NCBI RefSeq assembly: GCF_021412625.1
Contig: NZ_JAKCFI010000002.1
Location: 248,001 to 312,000 of the forward strand
DNA: 64,000 nucleotides
Direction: 5' to 3'
DNA from: Myxococcus stipitatus
GTDB lineage: Bacteria; Myxococcota; Myxococcia; Myxococcales; Myxococcaceae
Below, piece after piece: positions 55,039-56,942 of the stretch (position 1 is its first letter; each line of letters opens with the position of its first letter). The position numbers were made by a program, and so were the translations under genes. Under the pieces are notes generated by a model, which was given only the letters and a program-made list of their open reading frames with translations, was not told the DNA's origin and searched no databases.

Positions 55039-55842
55039 GTGAAGCTCATCGCGAACAGCGCCATCGTGACAGGAGGCGCGCAGGGAATTGGCCTGGCCAT
55101 CGCCGCGCGCCTGATGCGCGAGGGCACCAGCGTGCTCGTCTTCGGGAGGACGGAGTCGAAGGTGCTCGCGGCGGCCGAACGCCTCACCCGCGAGGCAGAG
55201 GGGCGCGCCCGCGCGGTCGCCTGTGCGGGCGACGTCTGTCGCGCGGAGGACGTGGCCCGGGCGCTCGACGTCGCCACGGCCGAACTGGGGCTGCCGGGCA
55301 TCCTGGTGAACAACGCGGGCACCATCGGCCTGTCGCTCCTCGTGGACCTGCCCGAGGAGGAGCTCGACCGCATGTTCCAGGTCAACGTGAAGGGGCCCTT
55401 CCTCTTCATGAAGGCCTTCTCTCGCGCGCTCATCGCCGCGAAGAAGACAGGCGTGGTGGTGAACGTGACGTCGCTCTTCCAGGAGGTGGTGACGGAGGGC
55501 ATGGGCCACTACGCCGCCTCGAAGGCCGGGCTGTGGAACCTGTCACGCGCCGCGGCGCTGGAGCTGGGCCGCCACGGCATCCGCGTCAACGTGGTGGCGC
55601 CGGGCGCCACCCTCACGCCGCTGGCGGCCGACTTCATCGAGGAGCCGACGATGAGCCGCGAGCTGCGCGCGCGCACGCCCCTGGGCAGGCCCCACGGGAC
55701 GCCGGACGACGTGGCGCGCGTGGTCGCCTTCCTCTGCGCGGAGGAGTCCTCCTGGATGACCGGGGAGAGCCTCACCGTGGACGGCGGCAACCACCTGCGG
55801 GGCATGCACAGCTACTGGGACACGCTGAACCCGCCCCGGTAG
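55039..55842 (+). CDS. SDR-family oxidoreductase
   Basis: A 267-residue short-chain dehydrogenase: TGGAQGIG cofactor loop near residue 11, NNAG near 91, VNVTS with the catalytic serine, Tyr-x-x-x-Lys in YAASK, and the closing MTGESLTVDGGNH. The start is a GTG next to a hairpin that overlaps the ribosome site. The 3' end runs 31 bases into the opposing heme-oxygenase-like gene. No operon partner. The substrate is unknown. Confidence 0.92.
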   Translation: MKLIANSAIVTGGAQGIGLAIAARLMREGTSVLVFGRTESKVLAAAERLTREAEGRARAVACAGDVCRAEDVARALDVATAELGLPGILVNNAGTIGLSLLVDLPEEELDRMFQVNVKGPFLFMKAFSRALIAAKKTGVVVNVTSLFQEVVTEGMGHYAASKAGLWNLSRAAALELGRHGIRVNVVAPGATLTPLAADFIEEPTMSRELRARTPLGRPHGTPDDVARVVAFLCAEESSWMTGESLTVDGGNHLRGMHSYWDTLNPPR

Positions 55843-56618
55843 CCGCCCGCGGGCGCGCCCATGCCCGTCGCGCCCCGGGCCAGCTCGTCGCACACCAGGG
55901 AGTGGAGGCGGAAGGCCATGCGCGCCTCCTGCACGATTTCGAGCGCCTCGTCCTCCTCCAGCTCCAGCCCGTCGATGCGCGAGTGCAGCCGCACCTGGAA
56001 CGCCGTCAGCTCCGGGGCGGTGTACGCGCCGTGGAAGCGCGTGCCCTGGTCCTCGCCCAGCTCGAAGGCGCTCGCCACGACGCGCGCGCGCTCGGGCGCG
56101 TGGATGAGGTCCAGCACGCACCGCGCATACGCATGCGCCACGAGCAGATGCGGAGCGTCCTCCGCCACCTCGCGCAGCCGCTCGGCGTGCAGCCGCGTCT
56201 CCACGCACGCGAAGCCCTCCGCGCGAGGCTCGCCGGAGAAGTAGCGCAGGTCCTCCTCCAGCGCGGCGGCCCGGCGCAGCTCCGGCATCAGCAACACGGG
56301 CGTCAGCGCCCCGCGCGCCACCCGGGGCAGCACGCCCTCGAAGGCCGAGTAGAGCGCGTGCAGCTGGCGCAGGTAGCCGACGTAGTGCTGGGCCCGGACG
56401 TACTGGCCGTAGACGCCATCCCACGACCCGGTGAAGAGCGACTGGAGGAACAGGGAGCGCTCGGCCTGCTCGCGCGCTCGCGCCGTGCCCTCGGCCAGCA
56501 GCACGGACAGGGGCGCTGGCCGGGCGACCTCCGCCGCTCGCGCTTCACTCTCGCTCTGCCGTCGCACGCGCGCGGACTGCTCCGTCCGCGGCAGCCGCAG
56601 GGAGCCCGTGGCGCTCAC
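55812..56618 (-). CDS. Heme-oxygenase homologue lacking the proximal His and distal glycines
   Basis: A 268-residue helical protein clearly aligned by eye with heme oxygenase: EGTARAREQAE matches EATKEVHTQAE, PVLLMPELRRAAALEEDL matches PVYFPEELHRKAALEQDL, and LLVAHAYAR matches LLVAHAYTR. The heme-ligand histidine (H25 of HO-1) is Arg49 here, and the flexible distal helix GDLSGG is LDLIHA at 169-174, with only the aspartate kept. Normal heme cleavage is therefore unlikely; it may bind another ligand or sense heme. An insertion of about eight residues (YVRAQHYV region) precedes the second helix. The GTG start overlaps the stop of the small upstream gene (GTGA). Confidence 0.85.
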   Translation of the reverse strand: MSATGSLRLPRTEQSARVRRQSESEARAAEVARPAPLSVLLAEGTARAREQAERSLFLQSLFTGSWDGVYGQYVRAQHYVGYLRQLHALYSAFEGVLPRVARGALTPVLLMPELRRAAALEEDLRYFSGEPRAEGFACVETRLHAERLREVAEDAPHLLVAHAYARCVLDLIHAPERARVVASAFELGEDQGTRFHGAYTAPELTAFQVRLHSRIDGLELEEDEALEIVQEARMAFRLHSLVCDELARGATGMGAPAGGYRGGFSVSQ

Positions 56619-56869
56619 TGCTTCCACCCGCCCAGCGTCGGCGCATGCAGCGCGGCGGCCGGCTCCGACTCCTCGCGACCGCCGCCCTCCGAGTCCGCGA
56701 GGTTGTGCAGCGCCTCCGCCAACGTCAGGCCGATGGCCCTCAACACCTCCTCCTCCACCCGGAGCGTCACGGGCCCCATCGCCAGGTGGATGTGCCCACA
56801 GGTGCACCGCGTCACCTCGGCGCAAGGCCCCCTCGCCAGCACCGTCTTGCCGCATCCCTGACCGAGCAT
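56615..56869 (-). CDS. Small Cys/His protein co-transcribed with the heme-oxygenase homologue
   Basis: An 84-residue protein. The first half has four cysteines and two histidines (GQGCGKTV, GPCAEVTRCTCGHIHLAMG), arranged so that CxCxHxH could bind metal; the middle (TLRVEEEVLRAIGLTLAEAL) is an amphipathic helix. I do not recognise the family. A strong ribosome site (AAGGAGTG) precedes the ATG at 56869, and a Fur-box-like promoter lies directly upstream. Its stop overlaps the start of the following gene by four bases. Confidence 0.82.
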   Translation of the reverse strand: MLGQGCGKTVLARGPCAEVTRCTCGHIHLAMGPVTLRVEEEVLRAIGLTLAEALHNLADSEGGGREESEPAAALHAPTLGGWKQ

Positions 56870-56888
56870 CGCGTCACTCCTTGATTTT

Positions 56889-56907
56889 GATTTTGATTAT
56901 CGAAATC
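56889..56907. promoter_or_regulatory. Fur-box-like operator
   Basis: GATTTTGATTATCGAAATC fits the 6-6-1-6 hexamer model of Fur sites (GATTTT, GATTAT, C, GAAATC); one more GATTTT precedes it at 56883. It is AT-rich in very GC-rich surroundings and overlaps the predicted transcription start of the heme-oxygenase-like operon. Confidence 0.6.
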
Positions 56908-56913
56908 AAATGA

Positions 56914-56942
56914 ATGATGCCGGAAGGGCCCCTGGGAGTCAA
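56914..56942 (-). promoter_or_regulatory. Promoter of the heme-oxygenase-like operon
   Basis: On the minus strand TTGACT (56942-56937), 17 bases, CATCAT (56919-56914). The predicted start, about 56907, falls at the edge of the Fur-like box. Confidence 0.5.

Follow-up and report, generated by a model that had tools for sequence, protein, structure and literature searches.

The 64,000-nucleotide stretch of the Myxococcus stipitatus genome analysed here (the window; contig NZ_JAKCFI010000002.1, positions 248,001 to 312,000) is part of contig 2 of a 10.1-Mb genome. On its minus strand, at 56869-55812, lies a two-gene unit that encodes a small cysteine- and histidine-rich protein and, behind it, a homologue of heme oxygenase (HO), here the HO-like protein, whose nearest relatives in a protein comparison are from Myxococcus. 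Read 5' to 3', the order is TTGACT, 17 bases, CATCAT, a palindrome of the Fur type, AAGGAG, the ATG of the small gene, the small gene and the HO-like gene (Table 1). The original prediction had a small Cys/His protein gene upstream with a four-base overlap and a Fur-like box at the promoter, and we found both, the overlap being GTGA and the box following the TTGACT-17-CATCAT promoter.

Table 1. Features of the two-gene unit, in window coordinates
Feature	Position	Strand	Details or basis
HO-like gene, predicted pseudo-heme-oxygenase	55812..56618	-	268 amino acids, GTG start
LDLIHA codons, residues 169-174, where distal GDLSGG is expected	56097..56114	-	sequence and alignment
Arg49 codon, position of the proximal histidine	56472..56474	-	sequence and alignment, family variation
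GTGA overlap, small-gene stop and HO-like gene start	56615..56618	-	sequence
Small Cys/His protein gene, 84 amino acids	56615..56869	-	sequence, alignment
AAGGAG, likely ribosome-binding site for the small gene	56877..56882	-	sequence
Fur-type palindrome TTGATTTCGATAATCAAAATCAA	56887..56909	-	second register overlapping at 56881-56903
Fur-like 19-base box GATTTCGATAATCAAAATC	56889..56907	-	sequence
CATCAT, predicted -10 element	56914..56919	-	sequence
TTGACT, predicted -35 element, 17-bp spacer to CATCAT	56937..56942	-	sequence

The HO-like protein matches the Pfam family Heme_oxygenase (PF01126) with 88.1 bits (cut-off 23) over residues 36-241, and its predicted structure has the HO fold. Among the matches listed, the best placed by both sequence and fold are true HOs. 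The protein had been proposed to align with HO over its whole length, which holds for residues 36-241 but not for the first 35 residues, which are unaligned to HOs and mostly modelled with low confidence. This tail contains a basic motif, RTEQSARVRR (residues 11-20; 56559-56588, minus strand), that is conserved in the Myxococcus members and partly in Corallococcus.

Alignments to the Leptospira HO and human HO-2 put Arg49 opposite the proximal histidine and LDLIHA opposite the distal GDLSGG, exactly as first noted. The residue pairing comes from these two alignments, and HO-1 and HmuO are in our match table only. Human HO-1 residue numbers are used below for the heme-contact and distal-network positions. 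Source entries that name family members call them heme oxygenase, often 'biliverdin-producing', a name that the residues contradict. With a predicted HO fold and no proximal ligand, the bacterial family fits the description of a pseudo-heme-oxygenase.

We sampled 96 genomes of the same family (Myxococcaceae, to judge from named relatives), 68 of which have a PF01126 match. Six of the 68 hold only other HO relatives, and the HO-like subfamily is therefore present in 62. We left out three HOs with the histidine and glycine motif (G114, G118 and G031), two proteins that by score are of the type of the second HO found in some of these genomes (G034 and G099, the latter also missed by the subfamily profile) and, from the counts, a different degenerate HO relative in G113. 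The G113 protein (L092, 2656-3282) has neither the histidine nor the glycine motif and sits on a separate long branch. Proteins from 57 of the 62 genomes were aligned (five had no locus), giving 47 main-clade rows and 10 Archangium-type rows. By coordinates, 56 of the 62 genomes, from six genera, have the small gene next to the HO-like gene. Because the HO-like gene is in 62 of 96 genomes and has the small gene beside it in 56, the operon is old, and conservation across genera places operon, overlap and box beyond chance.

A contig scan for two peptide patterns only gave 25 loci, 23 of them within the family and two from Streptosporangium. One of these two (L152) was considered as an outside relative of the degenerate family and rejected; it has the histidine and GDLSGG. 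A record titled Comamonas sp. KCTC 72670, with a title that looks mislabelled, holds a Myxococcus-type HO-like gene (L136, 70% identity).

The catalytic positions vary across the family. Arg stands at the proximal position in 26 of the 47 main-clade rows, His in 10, Ala in 8, Leu in 2 and Val in 1. M. xanthus has Ala here, and an M. stipitatus protein distinct from that of the window has His. The HO-1 G139 position is Leu (29), Gln (12) or Arg (6), and no row of the full 57 has glycine there. At the S142 position we found Phe (30), Leu (6), Tyr (6), Ser (4) and Ile (1), and at the G143 position Thr (21), Ser (11), Ala (6) and others; glycine is replaced there in 46 of 47 rows, and the one row that has it, G021, retains Gly-Gly at 143-144. 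The R183 position is His in 25 rows, other residues in the rest and never Arg. The Archangium-type rows have Ala, Leu, Val or Thr at the proximal position as aligned and Arg, His or Gln one residue on; it is His in G033 and G065, where the ligand may have shifted. As a control, we looked at the second HO from the 21 genomes with both HOs, and it has the proximal histidine and Gly-Gly in 21 of 21.

Without the proximal histidine and the glycines of the distal motif, the family has probably lost classical heme cleavage. An HO homologue without its catalytic residues had been taken as an argument against ordinary cleavage, and the family-wide substitutions back this up. The loss of the proximal histidine stands for the window protein, but it is not confined to that one gene and drifts through the family.

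All ten rows with histidine fall in a single 11-row clade of the tree (6 open forks among 57 inner branches, with a long-branch warning), and the only other member of that clade is the window genome. The remaining main-clade rows have Arg, Ala, Leu or Val. By eye, the simplest reading would be that histidine was replaced by Arg early on, came back once and was lost again in the lineage of the window, a course that would fit a proximal position released from selection. We also considered whether the histidine is kept where the second HO was lost, and the link was not clean among the 27 genomes of the same genus. Ten of these bear the histidine, five with a single PF01126 match (G008, G009, G012, G013 and G014) and five with two, and the histidine-free G007 also has a single match.

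The gene is not decaying, because its median ratio of nonsynonymous to synonymous substitution (dN/dS) is 0.40, close to the 0.36 that the second HO gives for an identical set of 78 pairs from 13 genomes (NG86 method, rough at such base composition). Among 21 main-clade representatives, moreover, 45 core positions never vary. A non-functional duplicate in slow decay would explain why the catalytic residues are gone, but it sits badly with these figures, with the adjacency of the two genes across six genera, and with the 4-nt overlap and box kept in all 42 loci with a linked small gene that were parsed by script. We rejected the pseudogene and regard it as extremely improbable.

Several positions are invariant in all 47 main-clade rows, and Y90, R166, D170, H162, H144, W66, G71 and H78 are among the 45 core positions. 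Y90, R166 and D170 correspond to Y58, R136 and D140 of HO-1. Four histidines (H78, H144, H157 and H162) and four arginines (R147, R210, R233 and R237) are also fixed, as are W66 and G71, which with H78 lie in or beside an insertion of about nine residues that main-clade proteins have ahead of helix 2 relative to canonical HOs. The constraint thus falls on the new insertion and the polar network of the distal side and spares the heme contacts. In an entropy test on 17 heme-contact positions, these averaged 1.10 and the rest of the core 0.99 (p 0.26), giving no sign of a retained heme pocket. This result does not favour a strictly maintained heme site for the proposed heme sensor, chaperone or altered enzyme, roles that are still hypothetical.

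The fixed Asp/Arg/Tyr network could mean that the HO-like protein is still a working HO with an unusual ligand; oxygen would be activated by this network, and the iron would be bound by a different histidine or by no protein ligand. The four invariant histidines, the ten rows with a proximal histidine and the Gly-Gly of G021 would all suit such an enzyme, but the replacement of G139 in every row and of G143 in nearly all main-clade rows would not. Gly143 is present in all 10 Archangium-type rows, yet R136 is lost in every one of them and D140 in 5. The window genome already has a second HO with the histidine and Gly-Gly, as well as HemS. Alignment of the 47 main-clade rows also revealed no alternative histidine in the proximal helix. 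His78 and His173 had been put forward as substitutes: His78 is invariant but by alignment lies outside that helix, and His173 was rejected as a conserved ligand, being present in the window protein alone (1 of 47 rows). We consider a working HO unlikely.

A different possibility arises from the distal side, where His144 replaces HO-1 Y114 in 47 of 47 main-clade rows and residue 239 (HO-1 N210) is His in 21, Gln in 20, Glu in 4 and Asp in 2. Beside Asp170 (D140, kept in 47 of 47), these residues could form a new metal site at the old distal network, and the HO-like protein would then be a non-heme metal protein or enzyme, either an iron or heme sensor or an oxidase, induced by iron starvation and accompanied by a small metal-binding partner. 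According to the excerpts of PMC13108848, the HO fold can host dimetal sites, and the HO-like dimetal oxidases (HDOs) resemble our family in reusing the fold minus the classical heme ligand. HDOs use a 3-His/3-carboxylate (or 3H/4C) metal ligand set in the core helices, for which H144, D170 and H/Q/E/D239 may be candidates. The Archangium-type rows speak against it, as they keep His144 in 2 of 10, Asp170 in 5 of 10 and a polar residue 239 in none. No HDO is named among the 50 matches listed for the HO-like protein, which excludes nothing. We think both the metal protein and this particular site quite improbable. If true, an enzyme that releases heme iron would have turned into a non-heme iron protein inside its own distal pocket.

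The promoter links the operon to heme uptake. For the 19-base box, shuffles of the window give 0 expected matches. A degenerate 23-base palindrome, allowing up to 3 mismatches, occurs at three places in the 10.1-Mb genome (plus one overlapping register at the first), and the backward control had no match. The three places are the HO-like operon, an hmuY gene and an operon for a TonB receptor, HmuY, HemS and FecCD. The hmuY gene (PF14064; contig 6, L124 501-1352) follows a Fur-type box close to the E. coli Fur consensus. On contig 4 (L127 641-6943), a Fur-type box is followed by a small Cys-rich open reading frame (ORF), the TonB receptor, HmuY, HemS/ChuX and a FecCD permease, and by its gene content this run is a heme-uptake operon. 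The HO-like operon has the same box type, but it encodes no transporter and includes a gene from a family of small proteins without a Pfam match above the cut-off.

Among the 57 loci parsed by script, 42 have a linked small gene and all 42 have the box (0-5 mismatches to one of three templates); the small-gene stop is GTGA in 40 and ATGA in 2. Six genomes of a genus labelled g33 have no adjacent small gene and carry the box directly before the HO-like gene, and in six Archangium-type loci we saw the box on reading the sequence. Together these make up 54 of the 62 genomes. With a Fur-type palindrome at the promoter, control of the operon by iron and Fur is our prediction. The idea that the fold and iron control point to heme biology gained support from the same box type at hmuY and at the TonB/HmuY/HemS operon. 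In M. xanthus, FurA controls siderophore genes and a furA mutant has been published; the excerpts of that paper (PMC11388931) contain no statement on the HO-like operon. HemS was found in 45 of the 96 genomes, all of them among the 62 with the HO-like gene. This distribution agrees with a task in a shared pathway, and relatedness explains part of it.

In the small protein, C6, C16, C22, C24, H26 and H28 are invariant across 18 close relatives. No member of 20 had a Pfam match above the cut-off, and there was no NCBIfam match. Its model (predicted local distance difference test, pLDDT, 81.3) has four strands and one helix and no convincing fold match in the PDB (best E 0.8). A Bfd- or HemP-like protein is a candidate identity that we considered, and a small ORF at L126 is labelled 'Com-like'. 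Of 195 Myxococcota genomes, 75 have family members, from 18 of 90 genera. The C-terminal GWKQ is present in 40 of the 42 linked small genes and absent in six unlinked ones (L093-L098). This pattern would fit a function of the underlying DNA in initiating translation of the gene that follows, rather than a function of the peptide.

Seven of the 18 unlinked small-gene loci have a telling neighbour confirmed by Pfam. The neighbours include HmuY (L096), a TonB receptor with HmuY (L116), DHOR with imelysin (L094), imelysin with one predicted ORF between (L120) and flavodoxin (L122). At L123 (3158-3938), a distant relative of the small protein is encoded immediately upstream of a fur gene. At L117 (3-700, another Myxococcota genome), the small gene shares one base of its start codon with the stop codon of a DUF2470/CREG-barrel (HugZ-like) gene, which is truncated at the end of the contig. 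L117 suggests that a heme-related partner was swapped for one of unrelated fold. In two genomes of genus g33 (L112 and L113), a small gene lies elsewhere, divergent from a histidine-phosphatase gene, which was confirmed by Pfam for L112 and assigned by sequence similarity for L113. The small protein belongs to a family not yet named, some of whose loci mark heme and iron operons in other Myxococcota.

The closest precedents are PfHO of P. falciparum and AtHO2 of Arabidopsis, both pseudo-HOs without the proximal histidine; PfHO has also lost Gly-Gly. According to the excerpts of PMC11634067, from which these comparisons are drawn, pseudo-HOs occur in several organisms and their roles are largely unknown. 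PfHO is an apicoplast protein reported to have no HO activity and to be required for apicoplast gene expression. Like PfHO, our protein has a predicted HO fold, no proximal histidine, bulky residues in place of the distal Gly-Gly and an N-terminal extension; unlike PfHO, it is bacterial and has a small Cys partner (none is described in these excerpts for PfHO), and its inactivity is inferred from sequence. It shares with AtHO2 an arginine in place of the histidine, whereas AtHO2 is found in plastids and has a proposed part in photomorphogenesis, and the bacterial residue can also be H, A, L or V. Human HO-1 and HO-2, the Leptospira HO and Corynebacterium HmuO have in common with the family PF01126, the fold and, in the main clade, the Asp140/Arg136/Tyr58 positions, but unlike them it has no conserved proximal histidine, no GDLSGG and, in the main clade, the extra residues before helix 2. 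No bacterial pseudo-HO under Fur control appeared among the search results listed and the excerpts covered, which does not prove absence.

By analogy with PfHO, the HO-like protein might no longer bind heme and instead serve as a regulator or scaffold that works by contacting other proteins during the response to iron starvation. The heme contacts are unconstrained while the tryptophan, glycine, H78 and arginines listed above are fixed, the SARxRR motif is conserved in Myxococcus and Corallococcus within the low-confidence tail, and PfHO, without its histidine and Gly-Gly, does not degrade heme and requires its N-terminus (PMC11634067, excerpts). However, predicted co-regulation with heme-uptake genes suggests a heme-related task, and the Archangium-type proteins do not have the motif, while those of genus g33 have an altered form. 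We view a regulator or scaffold of this kind as rather unlikely.

Our verdict is that this is a predicted bacterial pseudo-heme-oxygenase family within a predicted Fur/heme-uptake regulon. For its role, the explanation we favour, at about even odds, is that the HO-like protein is a heme-handling accessory of the iron-starvation response, encoded by the second gene of a predicted Fur-repressed operon. As iron falls, Fur would leave the promoter, and the small and HO-like proteins would be made together through coupled translation. The HO-like protein would bind heme, or a heme breakdown product, delivered by the TonB/HmuY/FecCD system, and would hold this ligand or hand it on. Cutting would be left to HemS or, where present, to the second HO. 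The small Cys/His protein could be a metal binder and a partner to the HO-like protein.

Several observations weigh against a heme-handling accessory. The heme contacts are as variable as the remaining core, which speaks against a classical heme site. Ten main-clade rows have a proximal histidine, and retention of the Y58/R136/D140 network, which lies behind the distal helix, may point to some remaining oxygen chemistry. HemS is absent in 17 of the 62 genomes, so the HO-like gene is independent of it. In the wider alignment of the small protein, C22 is the sole member of the Cys/His set that never varies, leaving metal binding only a guess, and for 9 of the 18 unlinked small genes the stretch shows no neighbour with a clear tie to iron or heme.

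If the explanation of a heme-handling accessory is right, pseudo-HOs would not be limited to the plastids of plants and malaria parasites, and there would be a bacterial family that can be cultured and mutated. The promoter would tie this family to heme uptake, and the role of an HO fold minus heme cleavage would become directly testable.
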